Position numbers and translations under genes: made by a program. Positions 2,255-26,381 of a stretch of DNA of 29,259 nucleotides are shown in pieces; position 1 is the first letter of the stretch, and the number at the start of each line of letters is the position of its first letter. This stretch comes from a virus. The notes under the pieces were generated by a model that saw only the letters and a program-made list of their open reading frames with translations, made no database searches and was not told the DNA's origin. The DNA is taken from positions 1 to 29,259 of the IMG/VR virus record IMGVR_UViG_3300024432_000055; one strand, 5' to 3'.

Positions 2255-2722
2255 TCAATAGGGTATGTAATCGATCTTGACTTTACTAGGATCATAATCG
2301 GTTAACAACCAGGTAAGGATCTTAATATATCTCGAGATATTATCTCTCTCCGGATCCCATCCTTTTATTTCCATGCACAAATACATCCATTGTTTTCCGT
2401 ACTTCAATACATCGCCAAAACCTTTCCCTGGTTTGGTTCCATCAGACATTCTCAAACTTTGATTAAAATATACACCAACAGGAAACCTGGATGGATATAA
2501 CTGAGGTATCATAAACATTATTTCAATTAATCTATCCGAGTGGCCCAATTTAGGAGCTACATTTTTCCAACCGATTGGCAATTCAAAATCAGATATCAAC
2601 ACTATGGCCAGAGCCTCTGGTTTTAAACCAATTTTCCAGGTTAATGAAGGATATATTTTACGCGCATCATAAAGATGTTTACCAATGAGCCGACCCGAAA
2701 TAATACCCTGTAATTTCTTCAT
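2255..2722 (-). CDS. Ubiquitin-conjugating (E2)-fold protein, putative
   Basis: A 155-aa protein whose pattern matches prokaryotic E2-like (UBC-fold) families such as Pfam Prok-E2_E. In order: a strand then ELPIGW (47-52); a strand, IEIMFMIPQLYP (67-77); FP (80-81) and VYFNQSLRMSDG (84-95), as in the E2 'YP..P' and 'LR..nG' region; then LC116MEIKGW122DP, resembling the E2 active-site 'CL.IL...W.P' although two residues shorter; then a long helix SRYIKILTWLL (130-140). In bacteria these families work with ubiquitin-like, E1 and JAB proteins, none of which was found here. Start ATG 2722 follows GGAG. The fold call is from pattern memory only. Confidence 0.5.
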   Translation of the reverse strand: MKKLQGIISGRLIGKHLYDARKIYPSLTWKIGLKPEALAIVLISDFELPIGWKNVAPKLGHSDRLIEIMFMIPQLYPSRFPVGVYFNQSLRMSDGTKPGKGFGDVLKYGKQWMYLCMEIKGWDPERDNISRYIKILTWLLTDYDPSKVKIDYIPY

Positions 2723-2745
2723 TTTAACTCCAACTATTGAAGATA

Positions 2746-2950: not shown

Positions 2951-3086
2951 TTTCCTTTCAATTATATCGCACATCCTCGGCTGCTCCCTGCCGTGCTCTT
3001 AGCTTATCAGAGTGGCTGATGACCCTATGAACCTCGAGCGGTGATCGCATAATTTGTTTTGGCTTTCAGGATGTGCGACAATTCTT
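2951..3086 (-). repeat. Stem-loop leader repeat, family 2, copy A
   Basis: A repeat whose ends match 3258-3370. The 42 nt at 2951-2992 differ from the other copy at one position. The arms tcgcacatcc (2967-2976) and ggatgtgcga (3069-3078) are perfectly complementary. The ribosome site AAAGGA of gene 2746-2946 follows the stem on the RNA. The right arm falls inside the 3' end of gene 3025-3255. The loop carries a 23-bp piece (2995-3017) nearly identical to the start of the HNH gene (301-323). Confidence 0.85.
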
Positions 3087-3255
3087 TATCACAATTCTTG
3101 CAGACTCTTCTTCCCAATCCAAATGGAGCGTTTATGCTTCGATTGAATCTGTGGCCGATCTCACATAGCGCCACCATTAGCGGGTTACCTACCTGGTTAT
3201 ATTTTTCTATGTGCATTACTCGTCTTGGCTTTCCTGTTTCCCAAATATATCTCAT
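3025..3255 (-). CDS. Small Cys-pair protein, hypothetical
   Basis: A 76-aa protein with HRFNRSINAPFGLGRRVCKNC at ~35-55; the single CxxC (52/55) plus His residues could hold a metal. I take residues 14-55 (from MHIEKYNQVGN) as the conserved core of a small phage protein. The C-terminal ~18 residues (LSHILKAKTNYAITARGS) are encoded by the family-2 repeat, so the gene has probably read through into the element and gained a new tail. Start ATG 3255 has AAAGGA 5-6 nt upstream. Confidence 0.6.
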   Translation of the reverse strand: MRYIWETGKPRRVMHIEKYNQVGNPLMVALCEIGHRFNRSINAPFGLGRRVCKNCDKELSHILKAKTNYAITARGS

Positions 3256-3257
3256 TA

Positions 3258-3370
3258 TTTCCTTTCAATTATATCGCACATCCACGGCTGCTCCCTGCCA
3301 TTGAGATCGATAGACCCTTTAGCAATAAGCGCATGTCTGTTTTGGCTTTTAGGATGTGCGATCAATTCTT
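3258..3370 (-). repeat. Stem-loop leader repeat, family 2, copy B
   Basis: Second copy of the family-2 element, with 11-bp perfect arms at 3273-3283 and 3352-3362. It covers the stop of gene 3349-3753 and gives the ribosome site AAAGGA to gene 3025-3255. The inner loop is unrelated to that of copy A, while both ends are conserved. Confidence 0.85.
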
Positions 3371-3753
3371 TTAAACCTGATCAAATTATTCGCCTGACCT
3401 TTTGGATTGTCTTCAAATTCCAAAGCTATGGGACCATATCCTTTATCATCAACACCGAAAAGACCATTAAATATTCCTAACAATCCTACATAAAATCCAC
3501 CATGCTGGGCAGATACTTGAACAGTCGGATGTTTTGCCAGAGCCTCATTGCATGGGATCCTATTGGCTATAAGCGAACCTATTGCCGGTTTATCCAGGGC
3601 AATTAATTCATTGAGTAGCTTAATGAAATCATCTATTGTTACGGTTTCCTTGATCATTTTAAACCTCTTCTTTTTAAACCTCTTCTTTTTATCCAGGCAG
3701 ACTCGACCTTTGCTGTCATACCTGGGTTTATTAAACCGAATTTCATTGATCAT
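3349..3753 (-). CDS. Conserved phage protein with grafted N-terminus
   Basis: A 134-aa open frame made of two parts. Residues 1-20 (MINEIRFNKPRYDSKGRVCL) copy the first 20 residues of the gene at 4376-4933. Residues 21-32 (DKKKRFKKKRFK) come from a tandem 15-bp repeat. From M33 (ATG 3657) begins a complete-looking protein (TVTIDDFIKLLNELIALDKP ... NRIPCNEALAKHPTVQV ... VGLLGIFNGLFG), a type common in phages with unknown role. Both starts have a good ribosome site: GAGAGG before 3753 and AAGAGG before 3657. The shorter 102-aa form is probably the original gene. Confidence 0.7.
   Translation of the reverse strand: MINEIRFNKPRYDSKGRVCLDKKKRFKKKRFKMIKETVTIDDFIKLLNELIALDKPAIGSLIANRIPCNEALAKHPTVQVSAQHGGFYVGLLGIFNGLFGVDDKGYGPIALEFEDNPKGQANNLIRFKRIDRTS
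3691..3753 (-). repeat. Duplicated gene-start segment (matches 4871-4933)
   Basis: 63 bp that match 4871-4933 at 55 of 63 positions by eye. In both places it is the 5' end of an open frame, from the start codon through codon 21. It ends exactly where the 15-bp tandem repeat begins. Confidence 0.85.
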
Positions 3754-3765
3754 TCAGGAATCCTC

Positions 3766-4122
3766 TCACTTATTTATCACAAAGTTAATAAATGTTGGGA
3801 TCCAACGGATATCTGCAGCTGACGCTTTATCTCCATTTTGATCGATTATTCCTTCACACCTTAGAGATATTTCATTCTCCTCGCTCATGTCCCAACCATA
3901 TTTATACTTCTTAATTTGTCCATCTATCACATATTCTTTATCATCGACAGCCTCTTCCTCGAGAATTACAGAAACCGATCCATCCCTGATCAGCTGCTCA
4001 AACAGATAAGTGATAAAATAGTCGGTTGAACCCTTTCCATATTTCTCTCGCAGCGCTTTAATATTCTTTGCCATGTCCTTGTCCCAATCACCGGCAAAGT
4101 CGTCTAGCCATTTCAAAGCCAT
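3766..4122 (-). CDS. Hypothetical acidic phage protein
   Basis: A 118-aa acidic protein, not recognised. It starts MALKWLDDFAGDWDKDMAKN and has predicted helices to about residue 45, then a charged beta-rich part. No Cys-based metal site. ATG 4122 has AAAGGA ~9 nt upstream and directly follows the stop of the previous gene (4123). Confidence 0.6.
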   Translation of the reverse strand: MALKWLDDFAGDWDKDMAKNIKALREKYGKGSTDYFITYLFEQLIRDGSVSVILEEEAVDDKEYVIDGQIKKYKYGWDMSEENEISLRCEGIIDQNGDKASAADIRWIPTFINFVINK

Positions 4123-4413
4123 TTATTTATCCTTTTCATTGAGCCTGACAATTCTATCTTCTGAAACATCAAGCTCAGGAGTCCCAGACGTTATTCCAGG
4201 CAATATAGGTTTATTGAATAAATCCTTTAAAAACCTGACTTCGTGGGTTATCTCTTCATGTGTTGAAACTCCACAAAACCTATAACTTGATTTTACAACC
4301 CTACCGATTGGTGGATTGTCAAGCTCATAGTTTTTTTCTAAGTCCGGGATCCTAACGAAATCACCCAATTTAAATTTAGCTTTTTGTATGGGTTGTAATT
4401 TTTGCTTTTTCAT
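4123..4413 (-). CDS. Hypothetical protein, SH3-like start
   Basis: A 96-aa protein from ATG 4413; the frame opens from a TTG at 4467, deep inside the previous gene, which I do not favour. Residues ~13-40 (KFKLGDFVRIPD ... PPIGRVVKSSY) look like a small SH3/KOW-type strand pair. Neither start has a strong ribosome site, so translation is likely coupled to the overlapping upstream gene. Confidence 0.5.
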   Translation of the reverse strand: MKKQKLQPIQKAKFKLGDFVRIPDLEKNYELDNPPIGRVVKSSYRFCGVSTHEEITHEVRFLKDLFNKPILPGITSGTPELDVSEDRIVRLNEKDK

Positions 4414-4933
4414 TATGTTTGCCGATGAATTCCAAATCCTTTTCAGTTGTTTCAACCTCTCCTTCAACTCCTGGAAAAAACAGATTGATTTGAGCTCTAT
4501 CTCCTTCGAGATATCTCCTGGCCTCTTCCATCAATGTCCTGATATTCTCTAAACATTTCGAAGATAAACAGGACATTTCTCCTTCCTCAGAATATGATGT
4601 TTCAGGCAAATGTGGAGTATTGAGGATCAATGGAGCATTTGAGTGCTCCAAAGTTTTCAAGGCTGTGATCACGGCTCCCATGATACCATGTTTCCAGCTC
4701 AGTGATACGCCTCTAATCTCAAGCCTTTCAGCCTGTTTTTTAGGGATCTCACAAATGTTTACTACGTGGATTTTAAGAGCTGCCAATGACTGTTTAAATT
4801 CATCTCGAGGAACATCAGTACACTTGATGGAATATTCATTTACCTTGTCATCAGATAAGATTTCATCATATACCAGGCAGACTCGACCTTTGTTATCATA
4901 CCTGATTTTATTAAAGCGAATTTCGTTGATCAT
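4376..4933 (-). CDS. Hypothetical phage protein
   Basis: A 185-aa protein, not assigned to a family. It begins MINEIRFNKIRYDNKGRVCL, the segment copied at 3691-3753. The middle (res. ~40-90) is amphipathic, and the C-terminal third is Glu/Lys rich. ATG 4933 has AAAGAGG upstream and overlaps the preceding stop (ATGA). The overlap of 38 nt with the next gene fits a compact operon. Confidence 0.6.
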   Translation of the reverse strand: MINEIRFNKIRYDNKGRVCLVYDEILSDDKVNEYSIKCTDVPRDEFKQSLAALKIHVVNICEIPKKQAERLEIRGVSLSWKHGIMGAVITALKTLEHSNAPLILNTPHLPETSYSEEGEMSCLSSKCLENIRTLMEEARRYLEGDRAQINLFFPGVEGEVETTEKDLEFIGKHNEKAKITTHTKS

Positions 4934-7573: not shown

Positions 7574-8489
7574 ATAATTTTTTAAGTGTGAGCTCAGGAT
7601 GGATCTTGCATTTAGGCTTCTTAATTTTCATAGGGACCGCCCAAACCTGAGTATTTCCCTGTTTCTTACATTCCGGACATTGCATCAGGACTCTTTTTTC
7701 ATTATCGTTCGATTGATTTTTATAGATGTTCATCCAGATAACAACAAAATCACTTTTTAAGAACGTTGTCAATTTCATGACATGGCCATTTTCTTCTCTC
7801 TCTTCACCGGTTGGATTCTCAATATGAGCATTATAATTTTGGACCGCTGCCATAGTTTCATCAAATGTATATCGATAGGTTTCAGCCTGGATCATATCCT
7901 TGGCAATCTGTTTGGGTCCCCTATCCCTGGATTTACCTGGGTAGGTTTTCCAGAGCTCTTCGAATTGATCATCTGAAATTTTGTGACTCTCTCCCTTACC
8001 TTCCCTCATACTCCTATCCCTATCCCTCTCACTATCGCTATCTTTTTTCTCTCTTTTTTTCTTTGATACAACTTTCTTTTTTTCTCCCTTTTTTAAGTTC
8101 GCATGCAGTATGCTGTCATCCTGCATGTGCTCTGCATGCAACTTGCCTTCATTGTGCATGTTCTCCGGTAATCCCGTGCTTTCATCGTGTTCGACTCCCT
8201 CAAGAAACCCGGCATTTAAAAGGATATCCAAATCAACCGGTTTCCTGACACCTATTTTCCTTGTTACCCATACTGAGTCGTAAGGAAGTAGATTATCGTA
8301 CCTGGATGCTAATAGAAATATCAGTATCAAATGCAGCTTACTGTCATCATTCAAGCATTCGAATTCGTATTGCTCACGCGGCGAAGAGCTCTTCCCGAAC
8401 GGCAATGAATTGTATAGACAGATCCAGGGCGGACTACGTTTCTTGTAATACTGCATTTTCTCGAAATTCTTTACCCTGAAATAATTCAC
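7560..8489 (-). CDS. Replication initiator-like protein
   Basis: A 309-aa protein. N-terminal ~95 residues (VKNFEKMQYYKKRSPPWICL ... LILIFLLASRYDNLLPYD ... LDILLNAGFL) look like the winged-helix start of phage replication proteins (lambda O / DnaD-type replisome organisers). Next is a Lys/Arg/Asp-rich linker (~132-170), then 'FEELWKTYPGKSRDRGPKQI' (~178-197), the 'F..W..YP.K....K..A' block seen in such proteins. The C-terminus has a zinc ribbon (C271, C274, C294, H297). GTG 8489 overlaps the preceding stop (GTGA). The linker region of the gene contains a candidate origin. Confidence 0.65.
   Translation of the reverse strand: MNYFRVKNFEKMQYYKKRSPPWICLYNSLPFGKSSSPREQYEFECLNDDSKLHLILIFLLASRYDNLLPYDSVWVTRKIGVRKPVDLDILLNAGFLEGVEHDESTGLPENMHNEGKLHAEHMQDDSILHANLKKGEKKKVVSKKKREKKDSDSERDRDRSMREGKGESHKISDDQFEELWKTYPGKSRDRGPKQIAKDMIQAETYRYTFDETMAAVQNYNAHIENPTGEEREENGHVMKLTTFLKSDFVVIWMNIYKNQSNDNEKRVLMQCPECKKQGNTQVWAVPMKIKKPKCKIHPELTLKKLYAND
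8036..8160. other. Candidate replication origin inside the initiator gene
   Basis: Four GCATG motifs begin at 8101, 8123, 8134 and 8156, so the spacings are 22, 11 and 22 bp (whole helical turns). Next to them, 8036-8098 is an almost pure polypyrimidine, AT-rich tract on the plus strand. Iterons beside an AT-rich strand-asymmetric tract, inside the initiator gene, is the plan of the lambda origin in gene O. The protein side of this stretch is the repeat-like linker (LHAEHMQDDSILHA) and the Lys-rich run. Confidence 0.45.
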
Positions 8490-8878
8490 GGTTTTTTAAA
8501 ATACCCCATAGCATCATTTTTATAACATTCATAACATTCAAGAGCTGCAAGACAAATGGCCCTGGCAGGATCACGATCGTATTTAATATCAGCTCTGCCG
8601 AATATGCAGCCATATAAACCGTTTCGTGCCCCAGTCCTGTGCATAGTAAAACCAAGACCCTTTCCAATGAGCTTCAAAACCACAAGCCAGGCTTCGTTTA
8701 TATTAGTTGAATATCTAGGAACATTGAACCGGTCAAGACCTTTGTTAAATCTCCAATGCTCAATATTTTTATCAGATATCTTCAAGTGATATCTATAATC
8801 ATTTTTAGAACGGGTTAACGCCAGGCCCATTACTCTTTTGGCAATCTGAATGTCTAACCGGCTGTTGAATTTGTTCAT
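8486..8878 (-). CDS. ABA-sandwich-like protein, paralog 2
   Basis: A 130-aa protein from ATG 8878, one nt after the stop of its paralog (TAACATG). It resembles the Phage ABA sandwich family: 'YSTNINEAWLVVLKLIGKGL' in the middle and 'ARAICLAALECYECY' near the end, where family members have a 'AP..IC.AAL' helix. About half of the residues are shared with gene 8880-9212, including the first 15. Role of the family is unknown. Confidence 0.65.
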   Translation of the reverse strand: MNKFNSRLDIQIAKRVMGLALTRSKNDYRYHLKISDKNIEHWRFNKGLDRFNVPRYSTNINEAWLVVLKLIGKGLGFTMHRTGARNGLYGCIFGRADIKYDRDPARAICLAALECYECYKNDAMGYFKKP

Positions 8879-8879
8879 G

Positions 8880-9212
8880 TTATGGAATTTCCTTACAGGC
8901 AAGCGCCGCAAGACAAATGGCCCTGGCTGGATTATGATCGTATTTCAAACCAGTTCTGCCAAACATACAGCGATATAAACCTTTGCGGGTCCCAACCCTA
9001 TTCAATGCAAAACCAAGACCCTTTCCAGTGAGCTTCACAACCACGAGCCAGGCGTCGTTAATGTTTGTTGAATATCTCCGGACCGGGATATTTAAATATG
9101 GAGACACTTCAAATTTCAAATAATATCTATGACTCACTTCACCTCGTCTTAACGTCAGGCCCATTATTCTTTTGGCAATCTGAATGTCTAACCGGCTGTT
9201 GAATTTGTTCAT
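8880..9212 (-). CDS. ABA-sandwich-like protein, paralog 1
   Basis: A 110-aa protein from ATG 9212, directly after the Lar-like stop (TAACATG), with AAGGAG ~10 nt upstream. It carries 'YSTNINDAWLVVVKLTGKGL' and 'ARAICLAALACKE', as its neighbour does. The two genes are a tandem duplication: the DNA at both 5' ends and at both 3' thirds is nearly the same, while the middle has diverged and differs in length. Confidence 0.65.
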   Translation of the reverse strand: MNKFNSRLDIQIAKRIMGLTLRRGEVSHRYYLKFEVSPYLNIPVRRYSTNINDAWLVVVKLTGKGLGFALNRVGTRKGLYRCMFGRTGLKYDHNPARAICLAALACKEIP

Positions 9213-9213
9213 G

Positions 9214-9396
9214 TTACTGAGGCTCCTTGACACGAGTATTCCACGCTTTTACCGCATCCTCCCGCCTATGATATGACCGCCTCATTGGACACTGTGGATT
9301 TATACAAAAAGCCTTGCGTGGTGTTACTTTTCTCTGTCCTGATATCCACGGTTTTTCACCACAATGAGGACAACCATCAGGCTCAATTTTACTCAT
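9214..9396 (-). CDS. Lar-like restriction alleviation zinc protein
   Basis: A 60-aa protein with C9-x2-C12 (CPHCG), C31-x4-C36 and the closing 'YHRREDAVKAWNTR'. That closing motif ('..EAI.AWN.R') plus two Cys pairs is the layout of the Lar family, whose prototype from the Rac prophage modulates host type I restriction. Here the second pair is CINPQC rather than CxxC. Start ATG 9396 overlaps the DUF5131 stop. Anti-restriction is inferred from the family and fits a genome that also carries a DNA methyltransferase. Confidence 0.65.
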   Translation of the reverse strand: MSKIEPDGCPHCGEKPWISGQRKVTPRKAFCINPQCPMRRSYHRREDAVKAWNTRVKEPQ

Positions 9397-25697: not shown

Positions 25698-26381
25698 TTA
25701 TCCCCAAAAATCAGGGTCCACAAAATTAACGACTTCGTCCTCATTCCAATTAAGACCGAGCGCTGTTATGCAATCTTCCAGCTCAGAAAATTCCCCGTCC
25801 ACGATCTTTTGTGGCCATATCGAAAAAATGAAATCAGGGTTAATGTCATCAAACATGAGATCCATCCTGTGATTATATTCTCCCACATAATCGATCCATT
25901 GCCGTAATCCTGACAGCCCGTGCATCCAGGAAGTATCTATACAGGCTTGTGCGTTTTCCTCGATTTCTCTCCTGACAATTATCCATTTGGCCTTTTTATA
26001 TGTGTGGATCCACGCTGATGATATAAGACACATCATTGGGCTTTTGAAAAACCAGGGGCCGTCCTCATATCCTTGCATTTTGGTTATACGCTTAATTTCC
26101 TGTTTCAGCCTGGGGATTCTCCTTTTTCTCAATGGAGGTATTTGCCTTTTGCCCAAAAGATCATAACCCAGACTAAACAAATAAGGGTCTGAAATACCTT
26201 CCTTAATGGCGGTATTCTCGAAAAATCCCTTAGGATTTTCCGGATGTGGGCCAATCATATCACCACCCCAGGAGCCAAGTAAATGAACTATACCGGCGAC
26301 CATTGAAGTTCCGGATCTTGGAGCTCCTGTTATTAGAATGGGATCTGGAATTTGGGGACCTAAATCTTTTACGTCGTTCAT
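25698..26381 (-). CDS. Sulfotransferase family protein
   Basis: A 227-aa protein. 'PILITGAPRSGTSMVAGIVH' (14-33) holds the P-loop-like 5'-phosphosulfate-binding motif of PAPS sulfotransferases, and 'WIIVRREIEENAQACIDTSW' (~133-152) fits the 3'-phosphate-binding strand and helix. The family moves a sulfo group from PAPS to sugars, proteins or lipids; the target is unknown. It interrupts the head-tail connector module, between gp6-like and small virion proteins, so it is an accessory ('moron') gene, but it shares the AGGAGG ribosome site style. It may alter a virion or host surface glycan. Confidence 0.8.
   Translation of the reverse strand: MNDVKDLGPQIPDPILITGAPRSGTSMVAGIVHLLGSWGGDMIGPHPENPKGFFENTAIKEGISDPYLFSLGYDLLGKRQIPPLRKRRIPRLKQEIKRITKMQGYEDGPWFFKSPMMCLISSAWIHTYKKAKWIIVRREIEENAQACIDTSWMHGLSGLRQWIDYVGEYNHRMDLMFDDINPDFIFSIWPQKIVDGEFSELEDCITALGLNWNEDEVVNFVDPDFWG

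Follow-up and report, generated by a model that had tools for sequence, protein, structure and literature searches.

A tailed-phage gene predicted to encode a lone E2-fold member of the Prok-E2_E/BubB family, with a cysteine aligned to the E2 active-site column

The gene at positions 2255 to 2722 of a 29,259-base linear virus record of unstated completeness (the whole stretch analyzed, here called the window) almost certainly encodes a stand-alone E2-fold protein, a relative of Prok-E2_E/BubB proteins carried by a tailed phage. According to our preferred reading, to which we give a rough probability of 0.4, this phage E2 would engage the E1 or ubiquitin-like modifier (Ubl) of its host, with Cys116 as the catalytic residue, and the modifier would be diverted for the benefit of the phage.

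Genes in the window lie on the minus strand, and the E2 gene is read from 2722 to 2255, with an ATG start and a product of 155 amino acids. The original prediction had placed an E2-like protein at this location, and a 155-residue ORF is indeed present there, its minus-strand orientation being a detail missing from that account. All the motifs quoted at the time were also found, i.e., ELPIGW (residues 47 to 52), the YP turn within MIPQLYPSRFP (71 to 81), LRMSDG (90 to 95), C116, W122-D-P124, and the helix that follows. The features are as follows.

2255 to 2722, minus strand: gene for the 155-aa protein with a predicted E2 (UBC-like) fold, assigned to Prok-E2_E/BubB (ORF, PF14462, family profile, AlphaFold2 model, PDB matches)
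2728 to 2731, minus strand: GGAG, probably serving the E2 gene as ribosome-binding site, 5 nt upstream of the ATG (sequence)
2480 to 2497, minus strand: Y76-P-S-R-F-P81, the "YP..xP" turn of the E2 fold (alignments)
2375 to 2377, minus strand: codon of Cys116, the sole Cys of the protein, pairing with the catalytic Cys of Ubc4 (family alignment, hhalign, Frankia alignment)
2369 to 2371, minus strand: codon of Glu118 (Cys+2), a position with His in most family members, Glu in Frankia, and Asp in Ubc4 (alignments)
2351 to 2359, minus strand: W122-D-P124, the Trp being invariant in the sampled family; compare "WSP" of canonical E2s (alignments)
2300 to 2338, minus strand: helix 129 to 141, after the active-site loop, at the crossover helix position (DSSP on the AlphaFold2 model)

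A single Pfam family, PF14462 (Prok-E2_E), matched the protein, with an E value of 8e-4 and a score of 19.6 bits that falls below the curated cut-off of 25 bits. A family profile built from 24 members, with the phage protein left out, scored the phage E2 at 45.1 bits (E value of 8e-12 in a set of 20,342 sequences) and matched none of the remaining ORFs of the window. Among 20,000 shuffled versions of the phage sequence, the top score against the same profile was 12.2 bits; this difference, together with the fold matches described below, led us to reject a chance resemblance to E2. When the phage protein was included, the profile retrieved Citrobacter BubB (PDB 9eae/9eav) with an E value of 1.6e-26. 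In tblastn searches against plasmids, the best match was an "E2/UBC family protein" of Salinigranum marinum (E value of 4e-4), and a Bradyrhizobium ORF without annotation was also found; the Frankia, haloarchaeal, and Bradyrhizobium members all score above the PF14462 cut-off. PADLOC and PHROGs returned nothing for the phage E2. In the genomes sampled the family is rare, with Prok-E2_E detected above the cut-off in 3 of 198 and 6 of 398.

The structural analyses were based on an AlphaFold2 model obtained from a 12-sequence alignment (pLDDT 87.1, pTM 0.81), the single-sequence run having given a pLDDT of 37.5. The model shows a helix, a four-strand sheet, and a helix, which is the E2 order. Its top Foldseek match was BubB from the BubCD-BubB complex (9eae_C; E value of 2.9e-5, TM scores of 0.59/0.70), followed by ubiquitin E2s at E values of 0.01 and above. 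Alignment with VIA-align gave a Z score of 12.7 for BubB 9eae_C (rmsd of 2.7 over 122 residues), about 10 for the eukaryotic E2s and UEV domains in the next rows, and about 9.5 for UbcH5b. As the input alignment was made up of family members, the fold result backs the family assignment, yet it is not independent of it. The original prediction had assigned the protein to the E2s and to the Prok-E2_E family, naming profile and structure searches as the way to check it; that assignment is borne out by the profile match, by E2-fold matches in the PDB with BubB ranking first, and by the gene context of the relatives.

The fold match alone does not separate an active E2 from a UEV or RWD domain. A rather unlikely alternative is that the protein is an inactive decoy with an E2 fold as in RWD/UEV proteins, which would block conjugation simply by binding the E1, the E2 partner, or the Ubl of the host, with Cys116 incidental. 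UEV domains such as TSG101 match the model about as well as active E2s do (Z of about 10), in line with such a decoy, and the residues at the active-site column, considered next, bear on it in both directions.

By alignment, Cys116 falls on the E2 active-site column. In the hhalign comparison with yeast Ubc4, C116 lines up with the ICLDI Cys; the match as a whole scores weakly (P of 0.0014 to 0.015), but the family alignment gives the same pairing. Among about 35 sampled family members, the residue located 6 to 8 positions before W-x-P is Ser in most bacterial proteins (WSRH/RWSRH, FSWH) and Cys in haloarchaeal (YCIH) and Frankia-type (YCLE) members. The phage motif is LCME, in which Glu118 lies two residues after Cys116 and the conserved His of the S-x-H of Ser-type members is absent. 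S-x-H is not strictly family defining, given that Frankia members above the Pfam cut-off also lack it. Among the members sampled, the combination of Cys and Glu without the family His is shared with the Frankia type alone, whose YCLE is the motif nearest to LCME. The phage sequence contains no HPN, the motif present in canonical E2s. The Cys proposed in the original prediction at the active-site position thus holds as an alignment column but does not stand as a family trait, the members from the best-known operons carrying Ser and His instead. Bub conjugation has intermediates of an unusual kind, possibly oxyesters, a point on which none of the present conclusions depends.

The E2-like domains of the operon type to which the relatives belong (type 6e) were described as having no conserved Cys and as being likely catalytically inactive (Iyer et al. 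2006, PMC1779556). That verdict on the Ser-type members speaks for an inactive decoy, as do the loss of the family His and the long branch of the phage E2 in the tree. Against it, UEV/RWD domains have no Cys at the active-site position and the phage E2 has C116 there, its single Cys falling on the catalytic column with a chance of about 1 in 155 by position alone; an acidic residue also occupies Cys+2, as in the Frankia members and Ubc4. A decoy and an active enzyme differ only in the use of Cys116, and the data separate them poorly. In the tree, the phage E2 groups with Frankia with support of 84/90; because long branches meet at this node, we distrust the placement and do not derive the phage E2 from the Frankia branch on its strength.

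Most of the homologues whose surroundings were read adjoin a gene for a multiubiquitin-type Ubl and a gene for a ThiF-type E1, often followed by DUF6527. One region has the order Ubl-E2-JAB, and part of the entries carry no annotation or only the label "hypothetical". The Ubl-E2-E1 arrangement corresponds to the polyUbl operon type 6e of Iyer et al. (PMC1779556), now called Bub. With a Ubl gene on one side of the relatives and a gene for E1 (ThiF) or JAB on the other, the family can be taken to work with E1 and Ubl. Cys-bearing members also occur in such operons, as the Frankia E2s pass the Pfam cut-off and one of them (L028) is encoded in a Ubl-E2-JAB-E1 operon. Arrays of a repeat (translated as SIRLGFVDRGD) with a CRISPR-like look flank this Frankia operon, at 4098 to 4760 and 8352 to 9546 of L028.

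The gene content of the window comprises connector, tail, tape-measure, methyltransferase, and replication genes and many small genes. The original prediction saw no ubiquitin-like, E1, or JAB gene in view, and this holds: PF14452 (multiubiquitin), PF14464 (JAB), and PF00899 (ThiF) had no match in the record at E values up to 10, and a profile built from the Ubls neighboring the relatives had no match in the window. The adjacent Ubl, E1, and JAB genes that mark a Bub/polyUbl operon are thus not seen in the 29-kb record, which is a fragment. The 71-aa ORF immediately upstream (2746 to 2961) has an operon-like gene position for a Ubl, but it was rejected as a candidate, with no Pfam support and a Ubl profile score of -1.1 bits. 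The absence of a Ubl, E1, or JAB from 29 kb points to host partners, although, the record being incomplete, partners could lie in its missing part.

This last possibility extends to a full conjugation pathway owned by the phage and modifying virion or host proteins, its other components being either outside the sequenced part or diverged beyond recognition, which we regard as unlikely. Such a pathway would be accommodated by a linear record whose completeness is unstated, by the short upstream ORFs without assignment, and by the many other ORFs that have no family. However, the left end of the record carries an HNH gene and the right end a head-tail connector and other structural genes, a gene order suggesting that mostly terminase, portal, and capsid genes are missing; moreover, the upstream 71-aa ORF does not match the Ubl profile and no E1-like ORF was found.

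Several repeated elements were observed in the window. Two intergenic elements of about 115 nt, about 94% alike (1818 to 1938 and 2137 to 2252), flank a zinc-ribbon ORF (1935 to 2144), the second sitting directly after the E2 stop codon. Both contain a 12-bp inverted repeat (GACAGAGCGAGA/TCTCGCTCTGTC) with a predicted fold (z of -2.9 and -2.4) and a possible short ORF starting MNLKRQSEI, and they could be a gene-cassette boundary or leader. A 42-nt intergenic repeat (2951 to 2992 and 3258 to 3299; 98%) precedes the small ORFs 2746 to 2961 and 3025 to 3255. The E2 gene is thus surrounded by small genes that have repeats at their borders. Elsewhere, ORFs 3349 to 3753 and 4376 to 4933 have a common start (MINEIRFNKxRYDxKGRVCL; 61 nt, 90%, at 3693 to 3753 and 4873 to 4933) and then diverge. 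Two adjacent duplicated ORFs (81 to 82% in DNA) lie at 8486 to 9233, of which the one scanned has a Phage_ABA_S domain, and a sulfotransferase-like ORF (Sulfotransfer_3, E value of 8e-5, below the cut-off) is found amid head-tail genes at 25698 to 26381.

It is also unlikely that the gene is cargo, i.e., a single gene from a bacterial Ubl operon in a temperate phage, used with the host E1 and Ubl against other phages or for host physiology. Its location in a region where small accessory genes alternate with intergenic elements that recur would be consistent with this, as would the occurrence of homologues on plasmids, some of them conjugative or mobilizable (the collection searched consisted of plasmids). 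The proteins scanned, which represent part of the window ORFs, include no integrase or repressor, and no Ubl, E1, or JAB was found alongside the phage E2, both of which argue against cargo. So do the homologous regions read, which always show a recognizable partner gene or an unannotated neighbor and never a phage setting.

Searches for phage relatives of the E2 gave none that was convincing in 50,697 phage records, one query returning mostly internal virion proteins, all with E values of 0.03 or worse, and none in IMG/VR contigs scanned with short patterns and tblastn. As the IMG/VR scans miss distant relatives, we do not claim that the phage E2 is unique. A search for a sister phage via the 720-aa structural protein of the window yielded none, and no record matched the first 25 kb of the window by megablast. 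Within the collections searched, two things are new, namely a phage with a lone E2 of the Bub family and the occurrence of the Cys/Glu signature beyond Frankia-type genomes; already known are the Prok-E2_E family and its operons, and phage E2-like domains have been annotated at least once (A0A6J5NSM8).

Overall, the lack of partners in 29 kb indicates that the lone E2, if catalytic, most probably depends on an E1 and a Ubl supplied by the host. In our preferred reading, for which the E1/Ubl operons of the relatives and the Cys at the active-site column also speak, the phage E2 would act within a Bub-type or related ubiquitin-like pathway belonging to the host, being charged by the host E1 or binding the host E1 or Ubl. 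Cys116 would take the Ubl as a thioester, and the protein would then divert or exhaust the modifier to the benefit of the phage, or redirect it to another target. The interference with host conjugation suggested in the original prediction is plausible. The rarity of the family in the sampled genomes, the missing HPN, the lack of phage relatives in the collections searched, and the incomplete record count against a host-pathway mechanism. More tentative is the proposal that a lone, Cys-active phage E2 takes Ubl from a Bub-type E1 of the host and diverts it, in which case the phage protein would antagonize or hijack a ubiquitin-like pathway of bacteria. Bub operons have no demonstrated antiphage defense according to a 2026 paper (PMC13373217), and a "counter-defense" role for the phage E2 is hence a guess.

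A lone Bub-family E2 in a phage suggests that phages meet the Bub pathway and provides a small, testable handle on its role. Bacterial ubiquitin-like conjugation has been proven experimentally only recently, and some of the pathways (Bil, type II CBASS) stop phages. The present phage may tap into the tagging pathway of its host or jam it. The phage, Frankia, and haloarchaeal members represent Cys-bearing branches in a family described as lacking a catalytic cysteine, and they are relevant to the mechanism of the Ser-type members, BubB among them.

Among known systems, a tailed-phage E2-type domain also appears in A0A6J5NSM8, a "Type II CBASS E2 protein domain-containing protein" from an uncultured Caudovirales phage; annotated as another E2 family and with a weak fold match (E value of 0.92), it is a precedent by annotation only. 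Canonical E2s (Ubc4, UbcH5) have the same fold and the same succession of a Cys, a hydrophobic, and an acidic residue before W-x-P (ICLDI..WSP versus LCMEI..WDP in the phage), but the phage E2 lacks HPN, is about 20% identical, and its alignment stops before the canonical last helices. Citrobacter BubB (PDB 9eae/9eav; PF14462; polyUbl type 6e) is homologous over the whole core and has the YP turn and W-x-P in common with the phage protein. However, BubB and the other Ser-type members carry Ser and a conserved His (WSRH) where the phage E2 has Cys and Glu, and the phage gene stands alone, with a product about 20% identical to BubB and below the Pfam cut-off. The haloarchaeal members (Salinigranum, Natribaculum, Natrinema) have Cys at the phage column but keep the His, and their genes, unlike that of the phage, lie directly before a ThiF E1. 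The Frankia-type members (L026 to L028, and the same-order genomes L044 and L045) differ in the Cys-to-Trp spacing, which is 8, as in canonical E2s, and 6 in the phage E2, and in the operon setting of L028, yet they carry Cys and Glu at the very columns where the phage protein does (YCLE versus LCME).
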